Positions 11,260 to 16,667 of a stretch of 64,000 nt of DNA are shown here, piece by piece. The translations under genes and the position numbers were made by a program. The notes under the pieces were generated by a model, which ran no database searches, was not told the origin of the DNA, and worked only from the letters and a program-made list of their open reading frames with translations. How positions within the stretch are numbered: position 1 is the stretch's first letter; every line of letters begins with the position of its first letter. This stretch comes from Dethiobacter alkaliphilus AHT 1. GTDB lineage: Bacteria; Bacillota; Dethiobacteria; Dethiobacterales; Dethiobacteraceae. The stretch is from contig NZ_ACJM01000004.1 in the NCBI RefSeq assembly GCF_000174415.1, forward strand, positions 1-64,000, given 5' to 3'.

Positions 11260-11306
11260 TGTCATACAATAGAGTAGATAAAACGAGAACAGGAAAGGAG
11301 ACGACC

Positions 11307-12410
11307 ATGGGTTACGGAATGACTCACAAGTATTTTGCCGGTGGCAATACCTGCCGCGGTTTTCACTCACTCTTCCACTACATACCGGAGCCGGACACAA
11401 AACGGCTGATTATCATTAAAGGCGGTCCCGGCACCGGCAAGTCAACCCTGATGAAACAAGTTGGCCAGAAAGCACGGGAACAGGGCATGTCCACTCAGCT
11501 GTTTTACTGCTCATCAGATAATGAGTCCCTGGACGGACTGGTGGTGCCGGCACTGGGGCTTGCCATGGTGGACGGTACCGCCCCTCATGTAATTGACCCC
11601 AAAGTCCCCGGTGCCTATGACGAAATTTTGAACCTGGGAGATTGCTGGGACACTGCGGCACTACGGCCTCACAGAGAGGAAATAGCAGCCCTGGTAAAAC
11701 AAAATGGTGAATATTTCATCCAGGCATACCAGTACCTAAAAGAAGCCGCAGTGGTGATGGAGAAAATGCGCTACCTGATGGCTAAGGCCATGGATTACAG
11801 TGCACTGGCAAAAATGACCCAGCAGCTTTTAACCGAACTGGCAGCGGCCCTGCCGGAAAAAGAGGAACCCCCGAAGGAGCGTCATCTTTTCGGCAACGCC
11901 ATCACACCGGCAGGACTTGTTAATTTATACCCTTCAATTTTCCAGGGAGTAGAACGGTTCTATCAATTAACCGGCGACCCCGGTTCCGGCAAATCAACCC
12001 TGCTGAAACATATTTACGAAACAGTGCTGCGTGCCGGCCAGGACGTGGAAGTGTACCATTGCGGCTTTGACCCTGAGCGCCTTGACGCCGTGGTGATCCC
12101 GGCACTGAAAACAGCGTTTGTGAAAATGACCTACCCGCACACCTTCACCGTCCCCCCCACCCATCCGGTAAAGGAACAATATACCCTGGCTCTGAGCCGC
12201 CACTCCCGAGCCTCACTGCTTAGGGCATCTTCCTCAGAACGGGCGGAGAGCCAGGAGAGGTTCTGGTTTTTAACAGGCAAAGCGGTGGAGATGATCCGCA
12301 GTGCCAAACGCAACCATGACCAACTGGAAGGCCACTACATCCGGGCCATGGATTTCTCCCAAACAGAAGCCATGCGTGATAAAATCATCCGTGAGCTCTT
12401 TTCAGAGTAA
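11307..12410 (+). CDS. Twin P-loop ATPase (PRK06851-like)
   Basis: 367 residues from ATG 11307, preceded by AAAGGAG. Two homologous halves each contain a Walker A motif: GGPGTGKST at 39-47 and GDPGSGKST at 223-231. The contexts are parallel, with H-LF-G/FG-A-TP type segments and YHCG/FYCSS following each. This tandem-ATPase family occurs in many Clostridia and Bacilli; its biochemical role is unknown to me. The gene is divergent from the HIT gene and monocistronic. Confidence 0.8.
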   Translation: MGYGMTHKYFAGGNTCRGFHSLFHYIPEPDTKRLIIIKGGPGTGKSTLMKQVGQKAREQGMSTQLFYCSSDNESLDGLVVPALGLAMVDGTAPHVIDPKVPGAYDEILNLGDCWDTAALRPHREEIAALVKQNGEYFIQAYQYLKEAAVVMEKMRYLMAKAMDYSALAKMTQQLLTELAAALPEKEEPPKERHLFGNAITPAGLVNLYPSIFQGVERFYQLTGDPGSGKSTLLKHIYETVLRAGQDVEVYHCGFDPERLDAVVIPALKTAFVKMTYPHTFTVPPTHPVKEQYTLALSRHSRASLLRASSSERAESQERFWFLTGKAVEMIRSAKRNHDQLEGHYIRAMDFSQTEAMRDKIIRELFSE

Positions 12411-12998: not shown

Positions 12999-13102
12999 TC
13001 TTCCACCTCTTTTCCGCCTGTCTTTTCGATTCATCCTATTCACGGACAAAAAAAAATATGTCCACTCTTTGAAAATAAAATGGACACGCTTTAATCTTTT
13101 AA

Positions 13103-13127
13103 AGGAGATATACTATTTTTGTCGAAC
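13103..13127 (+). promoter_or_regulatory. Spo0A box and sigma-H-like promoter before the kinase gene
   Basis: A perfect 0A box, TGTCGAA, lies at 13120-13126 in the context TTTTTGTCGAAC. It overlaps the -10 part of a sigma-H-like promoter: AGGAGAT (13103-13109), 13-bp spacer, CGAAC (13123-13127), to be compared with the AGGAWWT / RGAAT pattern of spoVG-type promoters. The kinase start is 51 bp downstream. An identical box pair occurs before agrD in the same locus. Confidence 0.6.
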
Positions 13128-13177: not shown

Positions 13178-14308
13178 ATGCAACCTCATACCCTGGCAGA
13201 AAAGTTTTTTAGCGAACGCTCATTTTCCCTGTCACTGAAATTAACCGTTTTCATAATCGCACTATTCTTATATGCAATGCTGTATATAACTTTTTCCGGC
13301 GGCTTCCTGTCAACCCAGGAATGGCGCCTTATTCTGTATTTTCTTTATATAATTATCTTTGCCGCTACATTTCTCTGTGGTTTTATGCCGGGGATAGTAA
13401 TTGCTGTGCTTAGCAGTATTCTTGCTTCGTCAATTCTTGTACCACAGGGACTCACTTTTGAGCAACTTTCAGTGGCAGACCTGGAAATCTACCCCTTCGT
13501 TGCCATGTATTTTATAATTGTTATAACTGTAAACTGGTTTCGGGAAAATATTGAACGTCTCAAAGAGCAGCTGGTTGAAAACGAACGACTGCACCAGCAG
13601 GCACGTCACATGGAAAAGCTGATGCTGGCCGGAGAAATCGCCGCCGGCATTGCCCATGAGGTTCGCAACCCCCTTACCGTGGTGCAGGGCTACATTCAAC
13701 TTATCTCCGCCAAGTGCAAAAAGCAATGTAACAGCGAAGATTCATTCTCCTTACTACTGGATGAGCTAAATAGAGCAAACGATATTATTTCCGACTTTCT
13801 GCGCTTCAGCCGTCCGGATCAACCGCAAAAATCTCAAGTGAACCCCAATGAAGTGATAGAATCCTCAGCCTCCCTGATTTATGGCGAGGCAATGCGCCAT
13901 AATGTACGGATTTTTTTATACCCCGATGCAGATATGCCCACCGTACTTCTGGACAAGGATCAGCTGATTCAGGTCTTTTTAAACCTCTTTCATAACGCCA
14001 TCCAGGCTATGCCCCAGGGCGGAACCATTACCGTCTATACCGGCTATGACAAGCACCTTGATTTGGTAACCATCAAGGTACTGGACAGCGGCACCGGCAT
14101 GGATGCCCAAACGGCGCAGCGGCTTTTCTCGCCGTTTTATACAACAAAGGAAAATGGAACAGGACTTGGTTTATCTATCAGCCAATCCATTATTCACGCC
14201 CACGGCGGCGAGATTAAAGTTGACAGCACGCCGGGACAGGGGACCGAATTTATCATAACATTACCACTACACAAACTTACTGAAGAGCAAGCAGGAGGTG
14301 CCCTCTGA
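13178..14308 (+). CDS. Membrane sensor histidine kinase, DUF4118-like input domain
   Basis: 376 residues, first gene of the Agr-like locus, with TTGGAG upstream of the ATG. Residues 20-125 form about four membrane helices; the stretch GFMPGIVIAVLSSILAS followed by VPQG resembles the DUF4118 membrane domain of KdpD. A short coiled coil leads to the HisKA domain with phospho-acceptor His160 in HEVRNPL, the KinB/KinA-like form. The HATPase_c domain shows NLFHNAIQAM, DSGTGMD and GTGLGLS. It is not an AgrC-type kinase (no HPK10 features) and has no receiver gene beside it, so a phosphorelay to Spo0F/Spo0A is plausible. The stop overlaps the next start (TGATG). Confidence 0.9.
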   Translation: MQPHTLAEKFFSERSFSLSLKLTVFIIALFLYAMLYITFSGGFLSTQEWRLILYFLYIIIFAATFLCGFMPGIVIAVLSSILASSILVPQGLTFEQLSVADLEIYPFVAMYFIIVITVNWFRENIERLKEQLVENERLHQQARHMEKLMLAGEIAAGIAHEVRNPLTVVQGYIQLISAKCKKQCNSEDSFSLLLDELNRANDIISDFLRFSRPDQPQKSQVNPNEVIESSASLIYGEAMRHNVRIFLYPDADMPTVLLDKDQLIQVFLNLFHNAIQAMPQGGTITVYTGYDKHLDLVTIKVLDSGTGMDAQTAQRLFSPFYTTKENGTGLGLSISQSIIHAHGGEIKVDSTPGQGTEFIITLPLHKLTEEQAGGAL

Positions 14309-14793
14309 TGCAAAGTCCTGTTTGGGCGCATCTTCTCTTTGCTATTATTCCTGAAATTACGTTACTGGTTTGTCTTACAGTATCCCTGGCCGGTATAACC
14401 CTGCGCGTAAAGCCGGCTATCGTTACAGCTCTGCTGTACGCACCAATCCTTGTGGCGGTGCGTGAATTCTTCCCGCCGGGAATACATACCGTTAGCGCCA
14501 TAATTATTGTTCCGGCTCTTGTTTCATTTCTTTATAGATTCTCATACAGCCGGGCCCTGAAATGGTTTGTTGTTGCAATTTTACTTCTCCTTCTGAGCGA
14601 AAGTACTGTCTTCCTGATAGCGGAACATTTTGTACTACCCGGTGCTGTCACGCTTAGCACCGGGTGGCATGTGGCTCTGTATGCACTACCAAGCAATTTG
14701 ATGTTGCTGGCTTTTGTACTTATCCTTCAAAAAACAACCTGGATTCAACAACTGCAGGCTGTAATTAGTGAAGCTGTACAAAAAGCTAGCTAA
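14308..14793 (+). CDS. Small integral membrane protein, paralogue A of three
   Basis: 161 residues, four to five hydrophobic helices, no soluble domain. Its start overlaps the kinase stop by 1 nt and AGGAGG precedes it, so the two are coupled. It shares a pattern with the next two genes: F-x3-PE near residues 11-16, a G-x3-(R)-x-KP/RP segment near 28-36, an R at about 52 followed by PPG-x-H, and LP-x-N/I-LLL near the C-terminus. I do not recognise the family. Possible roles (peptide sensing, export or kinase control) are inference from the operon. Confidence 0.75.
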   Translation: MQSPVWAHLLFAIIPEITLLVCLTVSLAGITLRVKPAIVTALLYAPILVAVREFFPPGIHTVSAIIIVPALVSFLYRFSYSRALKWFVVAILLLLLSESTVFLIAEHFVLPGAVTLSTGWHVALYALPSNLMLLAFVLILQKTTWIQQLQAVISEAVQKAS

Positions 14794-14818
14794 AACTTTG
14801 GAACAGGAGGGGTTTTAT

Positions 14819-15310
14819 TTGCAGGAAACGATTCCTTTGATCGCCTTGATTTTTCACTCATTTCCCGAAGCAGTTGCCATGGCTTTAGCAGGTTTAATCA
14901 TTATCGGGGTCAGGCCGCAGTTTGGCAAGGTTCTGATCTATGGTGCTCTCAGCGCCCTCAGTTCTTATTTCCTCCGGCAACTGGGCCTGGACTTTCTGAT
15001 TTTGCTGTTAACGCTGTCTGGCCTTAATGTTATTTTTTTGTTTTTCTTGTTTAGGCTCTCTGTAGTGAAAGCTGTTAGCGCCGTTATTGTAGCCACATTC
15101 TTACTACTGGTTTTTGAAGGGCTGATGTTAAGTATTATTTTACAGAATACACCGCTTACTGTGGAAATGATTATGGCCCCGGAAAATGCAGTACTACGGG
15201 TGCTGGTAGCGCTGCCGCAAATAAATCTTCTTGCCGCCACAGCATACATTGCCTACCTGCTAAGGGGAATGCAGTCGGACAGCTACAGTTCAATAAGAAC
15301 CTATTATTGA
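14819..15310 (+). CDS. Small integral membrane protein, paralogue B of three
   Basis: 163 residues from TTG 14819, chosen because CAGGAGGGG lies about 6 nt upstream; an in-frame ATG 17 codons earlier overlaps paralogue A and lacks a site. Same pattern as its neighbours: IFHSFPEAV near 9-17, GVRPQFGK, SYFLRQLG, and ALPQINLL near 137. Hydrophobic throughout, with about four to five helices. It is the most divergent of the three, lacking the PPGxH segment after the conserved Arg. Family unknown to me. Confidence 0.72.
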   Translation: MQETIPLIALIFHSFPEAVAMALAGLIIIGVRPQFGKVLIYGALSALSSYFLRQLGLDFLILLLTLSGLNVIFLFFLFRLSVVKAVSAVIVATFLLLVFEGLMLSIILQNTPLTVEMIMAPENAVLRVLVALPQINLLAATAYIAYLLRGMQSDSYSSIRTYY

Positions 15311-15377
15311 TTACTATATAAATTATAAATCCATTTCAAAACATGATGATTTGACAGCCTGAAAGGACGTTGACAAC

Positions 15378-15833
15378 ATGGATATTATGCCCTTTGTAAC
15401 ATTGATTTTTGTCGCCATGCCGGAAGCTATGCTTTTAAGTGCGGTGGGCCTCACTGTAGTGGGCACACGCCCCAGGCTGAAGCCTATTTTGCTCATCGCT
15501 GTACTATATGCCATAACTGCCTTTGTAGTTCGACAGCTCCCGTTTCCTCCAGGTTTACATTCCATTGTACTTTTGCTGATTCTGGCAGGATTTTTGTTTT
15601 ATCAGTTTAAAATAACTTTAATTAAAGCTGTTGCAGCTGTTTTTTCTGCCTTTGTTTTCCTGGCACTGGGAGAAAATATTTTTCTCCCACTGTTTATGAA
15701 TATCCTGGACCTTTCCGTTGCAGAGATCCTGGCCAGTCCCTGGCTGCGCATCGCAGCATCACTTCCTAATCTGCTGATGCTTTTGATAATTTTTGGCATT
15801 GGCTATCGTTTACGAAAATTCCATCTCCGTTAA
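15378..15833 (+). CDS. Small integral membrane protein, paralogue C of three
   Basis: 151 residues, with GAAAGGA upstream of ATG 15378. It is closest to paralogue A: IFVAMPEAMLL, GTRPRLKP, FVVRQLPFPPGLHS and SLPNLLMLL line up with matching segments there. About five helices and a short basic tail (RLRKFHLR). A 67-bp gap separates it from paralogue B, without a terminator. Three diverged copies in a row suggest subunits of one membrane complex. Family unknown to me. Confidence 0.75.
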   Translation: MDIMPFVTLIFVAMPEAMLLSAVGLTVVGTRPRLKPILLIAVLYAITAFVVRQLPFPPGLHSIVLLLILAGFLFYQFKITLIKAVAAVFSAFVFLALGENIFLPLFMNILDLSVAEILASPWLRIAASLPNLLMLLIIFGIGYRLRKFHLR

Positions 15834-15855
15834 GCGAGTGAGGCATTGTAGCTCT

Positions 15856-16452
15856 ATGAAATTAATTGAATTATTTTTAATTTATCTTTCTAATGAATTA
15901 AATTTAAATGAATCTCAAAGAGACATAATCCGCTATGGGGTCGAAACTATTGCTTCCACATTACAAGGAATTTTGGCCGTCATTATTACTTCATTACTGC
16001 TGAATCTGTTTTATGAAGCAATGGTAATATTGTTTGTAATTATGATTTATCGGAAACTTAGTGGAGGTGCTCACTGTATTTCGTCATTGGGTTGCGTGGT
16101 AGTGGGTACTACATCAGTAATAGTCCTTGCTTTTCTGAGTATAAGGATACCTGTCAGCCTACAGTACCAATTGCTTCTCACACTGTTTCCGCCCTTAATT
16201 GCTCTGGTTATTACATATTTCTATGCTCCTGCCGATGTGCCGGAAAAACCTATTAATAATCAAAGACAACGAACGGCATTACGCACTCTGAGTATTATAT
16301 GCTTATGTATTTGGACTGCAACCGTTGCCCTGGCAAAGTTGCCGGTATGGATAATTTACGCAGGAAGCCTTGGTATACTTTGGCAAGCATTTTTATTAAC
16401 GCCTGCAGGCTTTAGCTTCATCAAAAAAATTAACCCTATTTTCTCACGCTGA
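15856..16452 (+). CDS. agrB: AgrB-family accessory gene regulator (peptide-processing membrane protease)
   Basis: 198 residues from ATG 15856, 22 bp after paralogue C. AgrB proteins are membrane cysteine endopeptidases that cleave the AgrD C-terminus and form the thiolactone ring of the autoinducer. The active-site block RKLSGGAHC at 66-74 contains catalytic His73, and Cys80 is seven residues later, the same spacing as His77/Cys84 of the Staphylococcus enzyme. About five to six helices. The adjacent agrD-like gene supports the call. The upstream start at 15793 would overlap paralogue C and lacks a clear site. Confidence 0.92.
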   Translation: MKLIELFLIYLSNELNLNESQRDIIRYGVETIASTLQGILAVIITSLLLNLFYEAMVILFVIMIYRKLSGGAHCISSLGCVVVGTTSVIVLAFLSIRIPVSLQYQLLLTLFPPLIALVITYFYAPADVPEKPINNQRQRTALRTLSIICLCIWTATVALAKLPVWIIYAGSLGILWQAFLLTPAGFSFIKKINPIFSR

Positions 16453-16458
16453 CAGCAC

Positions 16459-16514
16459 TGTCGAACAATGTAACATTTCGACAAAAGAAGGGTTTTTTGC
16501 TCTTTATATGGAAT
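16459..16514 (+). promoter_or_regulatory. Inverted Spo0A box pair and sigma-H-like promoter of agrD
   Basis: TGTCGAA at 16459-16465 and TTCGACA at 16477-16483 are two perfect 0A boxes in inverted orientation, 11 bp apart. They are followed by a sigma-H-like promoter, AGGGTTT (16489-16495), 14-bp spacer, GGAAT (16510-16514). The pair could also form a weak hairpin. The agrD start is 31 bp past the -10. This arrangement points to Spo0A control and separate expression of the signal peptide. Confidence 0.65.
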
Positions 16515-16544
16515 GACTGCGAAAACATCACAGGAGGTTTTATC

Positions 16545-16667
16545 ATGAAAAAAAGAATCCTCATCCTTTTGTCTAGCATTTTGACGTTGGTCGCCCTAAG
16601 TGGAGCAGCTTCTGCCTGCACGGCAACTCTTTATCAACCGGAACTGCCGGAAGCACTGAAAAAGTAG
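16545..16667 (+). CDS. agrD: AgrD-like cyclic lactone autoinducer precursor peptide
   Basis: A 40-residue peptide with AGGAGG 7 nt before ATG 16545. It has the typical precursor plan: basic amphipathic N-terminus (MKKRIL), hydrophobic leader ending in GAASA, a single Cys at 25, and the conserved C-terminal recognition tail YQPELPEALKK. Ala-x-Cys followed by YQPE-x-P-x-x-L is the hallmark of the clostridial cyclic-lactone autoinducer family. The mature ring probably begins at Cys25 (CTATLY region), but ring size cannot be read from sequence. It lies 92 bp after agrB with its own promoter elements. Confidence 0.9.
   Translation: MKKRILILLSSILTLVALSGAASACTATLYQPELPEALKK

Follow-up and report, generated by a model that had tools for sequence, protein, structure and literature searches.

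A putative split-receptor Agr module in Dethiobacter alkaliphilus: an AgrC-type sensor domain encoded apart from an orphan HisKA kinase

How is an Agr-type peptide read when the genes that make it stand beside neither an AgrC nor an AgrA? The question is raised by Dethiobacter alkaliphilus AHT 1, of which we analyzed the first 64,000 nucleotides of contig NZ_ACJM01000004.1 (the window). Positions 13178-16667 carry six genes, all on the plus strand, in the order kinase, M1, M2, M3, AgrB, and AgrD, where M1 to M3 denote three small membrane proteins. Order, strand, and spacing are all as given in the original prediction made from the DNA letters: the kinase and M1 genes overlap by 1 nt, and the gaps measure 25 (M1-M2), 67 (M2-M3), 22 (M3-AgrB), and 92 bp (AgrB-AgrD). 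We read the locus as an Agr-type quorum-sensing module with a split receptor, in which M would be the sensor and the separate kinase its partner, and we put the probability of this reading at roughly 0.7. The features on which it draws are as follows (TM, transmembrane).

13101..13127, plus strand: sigma-H-like promoter of the kinase gene, AAAGGAGAT - 11 nt - GTCGAAC, 50 nt before the ATG
13178..14308, plus strand: orphan sensor histidine kinase, 376 aa, with 4 TM helices, HisKA (HEVRNPL; PF00512, 1e-14), and HATPase_c (PF02518, 4e-27)
14308..14793, plus strand: M1, stand-alone 5-TM AgrC-sensor-like protein, the most divergent copy, all seven signature residues kept
14819..15310, plus strand: M2, second copy by paralogy and alignment, TTG start (alternative GTG at 14768), without the conserved GxH
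15378..15833, plus strand: M3, third copy, 5 TM helices, 37-44% identical to the single M of relatives and nearer to it than M1 or M2
15856..16452, plus strand: AgrB, membrane peptidase processing AgrD (His73, Cys80)
16469..16483, plus strand: conserved motif TGTAACATTTCGACA / TGTAAYRTTTCGACA directly upstream of the agrD -35, with an exact 0A-box TGTCGAA on the minus strand
16487..16514, plus strand: sigma-H-like promoter of agrD, GAAGGGTTT - 12 nt - ATGGAAT, 30 nt before the ATG
16545..16667, plus strand: AgrD, signal peptide precursor, 40 aa
16617-16631 (codons), plus strand: predicted thiolactone ring Cys25-Thr-Ala-Thr-Leu29, flanks conserved and core variable

The AgrB and AgrD assignments are certain at the level of sequence: AgrB matches PF04647 at 6.8e-35, and the AgrD-like 40-mer matches TIGR04223 at 4.6e-12, with 45.8 bits against a cut-off of 19, which bears out the signal pair that had been predicted. 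The genome holds one copy of agrB, and its H73 and C80 are invariant across eight orthologues. The eight AgrD orthologues keep the leader, Cys25, and the downstream Gln-Pro..Pro, and the four residues after Cys25 vary; the ring, by register with known AgrD precursors, is presumably Cys-Thr-Ala-Thr-Leu. Among 60 matched AgrD copies from the wider loci there are 55 different core patterns, a diversity as expected of a signal that carries specificity.

M1, M2, and M3 are true paralogues (blastp, 4e-16, 3e-26, and 4e-5), as had been noticed from the letters, and they have no credible family match in Pfam or NCBIfam. The AlphaFold2 model of M3 is a compact five-helix membrane protein (predicted local distance difference test [pLDDT] score, 95.9; predicted template modeling [pTM] score, 0.89), and a fold search against the PDB returned no match (best E value, 1.1; VIA Z, 5.2, within helical-bundle noise). 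In the D. alkaliphilus genome, M is confined to the module locus even at E ≤ 1 and occurs only as separate genes. A homology between M and the kinase's own TM domain was considered and rejected (hhalign probability, 0.7). No named full-length M-kinase turned up in searches of phages and plasmids, where only the kinase domain found matches.

What M is can be seen from its relatives. In a phylum sample of 398 Bacillota genomes, the M profile found the family in 140, and 127 M loci, the D. alkaliphilus window included, were annotated. In 22 of the 127 loci, the M domain makes up the N-terminal ~150 residues of proteins 440-480 aa long, and the M profile (A2) matches the N-termini of these fused kinases with E values down to 3e-29. 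Two fused kinases were examined; after the M domain, both have two TM helices, a Spo0B-type phosphoacceptor (SPOB_a), and a GHKL ATPase, above Pfam cut-offs, and a fused kinase compared with the PDB matches the solved S. aureus AgrC kinase modules 6e52 (5.1e-9) and 4bxi (5.4e-8) in its kinase part. In another 50 of the 127, an M gene of ~165 aa stands beside a separate GHKL kinase gene of ~285 aa, one example of which has two TM helices. These natural split-GHKL genes resemble the S. aureus AgrC fragment TM5-6C (residues 134-430), which comprises two TM helices and the kinase and is constitutively active alone (PMC3841183), and the N-terminal TM region of AgrC discriminates the peptide (PMC5007282). 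Since M forms the N-terminus of AgrC-type Spo0B/GHKL kinases and elsewhere stands alone beside a kinase, the reading that fits best is of a split AgrC with M as its receptor half, the sensor domain of AgrC-type kinases being encoded as a separate gene. The membrane paralogues had been proposed to act in place of AgrC; they do look like sensor subunits, but rather than extra parts they would be the AgrC-type sensor domain itself. Seven positions are more than 90% conserved over fused, split, and stand-alone M (P15, E16, R52, G59, H61, E99, and P130); by alignment inspection, the full set is kept in M1 and M3, M2 being without the His. At two loci (L063 and L074), what is probably a mobile element interrupts the split GHKL kinase gene or parts it from M; reverse-strand open reading frames of 564 aa (L063) and of 294 and 113 aa (L074) lie at the break.

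M also keeps close company with Agr genes. Either agrB or agrD, or both, lie within 4.5 kb in 115 of the 127 M loci, and only 5 have no recognized partner, so that M does not occur mostly without agrB/agrD or the kinase, an outcome that the original prediction had named as speaking against itself. By genome, M and AgrB are both present in 132, M only in 8, AgrB only in 33, and neither in 225 (p 2e-62, to be used as a guide only because related genomes are not independent).

The kinase is of the HisKA/HATPase_c type and lacks the single-chain AgrC (HPK10, GHKL) architecture, its PF14501 match being below the cut-off; it is 47-54% identical to seven syntenic orthologues. No AgrA (LytTR response regulator) is encoded at the locus. 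The idea of an Agr-type signal with a non-AgrC kinase is supported. Two details of that idea fared less well. The description "KinB-like" fits the catalytic part and not the rest, and a DUF4118-like membrane domain found no support (14 bits against a Pfam gathering cut-off of 28.4). The kinase combines an HE[IV]RNPLT H-box with an orphan gene, as Spo0A-directed sporulation kinases do; the HExRNPLT type is common to sporulation kinases. A spo0A gene is present in the D. alkaliphilus genome and in 19 of the 20 genomes of the family Dethiobacteraceae.

Across the phylum sample, the proteins that adjoin stand-alone M appear to be exchangeable. In 28 loci, and in 2 more that also have a kinase, the neighbor of M is a membrane GGDEF protein, almost always with HD-GYP; a HisKA kinase adjoins M in 15 loci (the Dethiobacteraceae counted) where the kinase has a particular TM domain and in 6 where it does not; GGDEF, HD, and HisKA identities were checked with Pfam on representatives. 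The GGDEF proteins have this N-terminal TM domain in common with many HisKA kinases (alignment A6). Of its 81 strong matches, 68 lie near an Agr cassette (59 have a listed M or AgrB no more than 4 kb away, and inspection added 9), 5 are clearly away from one, and the remaining 8 include contig ends, which marks the domain as for the most part dedicated to Agr cassettes. The TM domain of the D. alkaliphilus kinase is a candidate diverged member of it (hhalign probability, 73.5; P 3e-5, over the last 80 columns; 0.7 for M as control). At least eight changes of output type are needed on the AgrB tree, which is a quick tree. A response regulator lies nearby in 4 of 51 HisKA and GGDEF cassettes versus 43 of 72 GHKL cassettes (p 2e-9). 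Some other HisKA and GGDEF cassettes also carry M twice.

M-AgrB-AgrD cassettes ending in GGDEF-HD-GYP were recorded at L085, L100, L108, L111, L112, L114, L117, L145, L149, L162-L165, L169, L171, L172, L174, L175, L178, L186, L188, and L189. Their gene content suggests that cyclic-di-GMP is directly controlled by the Agr peptide there. HisKA kinases with the shared TM domain and no Agr cassette nearby occur at L193, L195, L200, and L209; these may respond to an M encoded elsewhere.

The module has a settled place in the Dethiobacteraceae. The order kinase-M-AgrB-AgrD recurs at the equivalent site in 7 of the 19 other family genomes, with one M in each, and is flanked across the family loci by mtaB on one side and by a small membrane-anchored protein and a P-loop ATPase on the other; in the window, the latter is a PRK06851-family P-loop ATPase at 11298-12410, which is near the module in the family loci whose contig extends there. 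M and AgrB are found in exactly the same 8 of the 20 genomes (8/8 versus 0/12), the kinase adjoins M in 8/8 family loci, and the eight AgrB sequences group together in the AgrB tree (Shimodaira-Hasegawa-like approximate likelihood ratio test [SH-aLRT], 99). The G+C content of the module, 0.434, is below that of its flanks (0.509 and 0.551). Same-place synteny and AgrB grouping make this an old family module that is missing from 12 of the 20 genomes; on such grounds it is a conserved module rather than a recent insertion, and the earlier view of the locus as an interruption of the conserved mtaB region is not upheld. The tripling of M, by the same comparison, belongs to the D. alkaliphilus lineage and the family norm is one M, so three membrane paralogues describe the D. 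alkaliphilus module and not those of its relatives.

Further evidence comes from the regulatory sequences. We used the sigma-H-like pattern RnAGGAWWW, 11-12 nt, RnnGAAT (maximum, 13 positions), its consensus being that of B. subtilis. In its strict form, the pattern has 121 sites in the genome versus 9 for the reversed pattern (13 times commoner), and one site, AGAGGATAT-N11-GTCGAAT, matches perfectly and is placed 54 nt upstream of the spo0A start (L129, 2296-2322, minus strand). The 121 sites also form a candidate map of the sigma-H regulon. In each of the eight family loci, a site of this kind stands ahead of the kinase gene and another ahead of agrD. The kinase promoter, degenerate in D. 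alkaliphilus, is perfect in three of the orthologous loci (L018, L019, and L020) and has the 11-nt spacing in 8/8; its score summed over the eight loci is 95, and shuffles reached at most 85 (0/500). For the agrD promoter, the summed score is 97 and shuffles reached at most 84 (0/500). Elsewhere in the phylum sample, 21 of 30 GGDEF cassettes have a sigma-H-like site ahead of M (3 with the reversed control), as do 7 of 13 other HisKA cassettes (control, 0).

The conserved motif directly upstream of the agrD -35 is possibly a site for Spo0A or another regulator. TTCGACA is found in 7/8 orthologous agrB-agrD gaps; TGTCGAA occurs 5 times in the window against 4.9 expected, which is not above chance, and only position and conservation count. 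A second TGTCGAA, upstream of the kinase, was rejected as a Spo0A box; the alignment puts it on the -10 of the sigma-H-like promoter. Nor did a terminator-like hairpin conserved in the agrB-agrD gap hold up: the consensus fold is weak (-1.6 kcal/mol) and Rfam gave nothing credible, and the conserved bases of that gap are for this reason read as promoter plus binding site. In B. subtilis, kinA, spo0F, spo0A, and the phr genes depend on sigma-H. The sigma-H-like promoters and the 0A-box would therefore count the module among the genes that are turned on when growth comes to an end, which fits a feedback with Spo0A. That the peptide feeds a Spo0 phosphorelay had been proposed from the locus itself; because the sigma-H-like promoters are conserved and the kinase is an orphan, this putative link gains independent support.

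How firmly, then, can a receptor be assigned? That M is the peptide-sensing subunit seems quite probable from its place at the head of AgrC-type kinases, and its pairing with the adjacent kinase appears equally probable. A rival view is that M instead helps AgrB, be it in export, in self-protection, or in the handling of AgrD, with the kinase as an independent neighbor. In its favor, M tracks AgrB closely by genome, is often directly before agrB, and has no PDB fold match that tells of its function. We nevertheless hold this improbable: the most direct hint of what M does is that 22 loci have it as the N-terminal domain of an AgrC-type kinase, the split-GHKL loci pair it directly with a kinase gene, and, since 33 genomes have AgrB without M, AgrB works without it. 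Still less credible is a classic AgrC/AgrA pair elsewhere in the genome that reads the peptide, the other outcome that had been foreseen as damaging. The genome does contain five PF14501 matches, but none of them has an M domain, and no such pair was found; the genome's sole LytTR domain (L128, G000:C1:123504) is fused to an ABC-transporter-ATPase-like protein instead of a receiver and is not part of a response regulator.

The step beyond the kinase is less secure, and we give Spo0A an even chance of being its main target. M could sense the peptide while the kinase signals to another regulator and the sigma-H-like promoters merely time stationary-phase expression. Most HisKA cassettes have no response regulator near, so the target is not given by position, and the best NCBIfam catalytic matches of the kinase are AtoS and ZraS, with KinD third. 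Against this stand the H-box, of a type also found in sporulation kinases, the orphan state of the kinase in 8/8 family loci, and the exact 0A-box before agrD in 7/8, and we regard a target other than Spo0A as the more doubtful choice. Several observations weigh against the split-receptor reading and its extension to Spo0A. Family genomes that lack the module have Spo0A too, which makes its presence unspecific; the D. alkaliphilus kinase promoter is degenerate, with 11/13 positions and p 0.14 when taken alone; the kinase TM domain is only moderately like the shared domain and was missed by the genome profile scan for it at E ≤ 1e-6; and the comparison of an M-fused kinase with S. aureus AgrC covered the kinase part.

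Agr peptides, AgrC, and orphan agrBD genes are already known. With the agrBDCA systems of Staphylococcus and the clostridia, the D. alkaliphilus module shares the AgrB His/Cys peptidase, the AgrD precursor, and a membrane sensor with a histidine kinase; it differs in that the receptor would lie in two genes, the kinase is HisKA rather than HPK10/GHKL, AgrA is absent, and the sensor gene is tripled. In terms of AgrC, M equals the N-terminal part; in place of the second half, D. alkaliphilus has a 4-TM HisKA kinase, which differs in type. C. difficile agrB1D1 likewise lacks agrC/agrA and is linked to sporulation: Agr1 promotes sporulation there, and another transmembrane sensor has been postulated as its receptor (PMC10602386). 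Unlike it, D. alkaliphilus encodes a receptor candidate next to agrB. KinA-KinE and the clostridial orphan Spo0A kinases share with our kinase the HisKA H-box type, the orphan gene, and the sigma-H-like promoter, but the D. alkaliphilus kinase is without PAS, is tied to a peptide-making cassette, and has Spo0A as a presumed target. The open-access literature searched contained no split AgrC, no agr-GGDEF/HD-GYP cassette, and no account of a stand-alone AgrC sensor family, its HisKA or GGDEF-HD-GYP pairing, or the shared partner TM domain, an absence that is not proof of novelty.

Under the split-receptor reading, AgrB would cut and cyclize AgrD into a five-residue thiolactone (Cys-Thr-Ala-Thr-Leu), which would bind M from outside; M would then contact the TM domain of the kinase and switch it on or off, and the kinase would pass phosphate to Spo0A, directly or via a phosphotransfer protein, so that population density would enter the decision on sporulation or stationary phase. 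Having three copies of M may broaden or tune the recognition of peptides, or the copies may assemble into hetero-oligomers; this step is the weakest. For the Bacillota as a whole, we lean toward a widespread Agr class in which a detached AgrC sensor, M, plugs into HisKA (Spo0A pathway), GHKL-LytTR, or GGDEF-HD-GYP outputs, the cyclic peptide then directly controlling sporulation or cyclic-di-GMP. Many clostridial agrBD loci have no AgrC, and a detachable sensor would offer them a concrete, testable class of receptor; it would also show a way for Agr peptides to govern Spo0A-type kinases and cyclic-di-GMP enzymes with no response regulator dedicated to the task.

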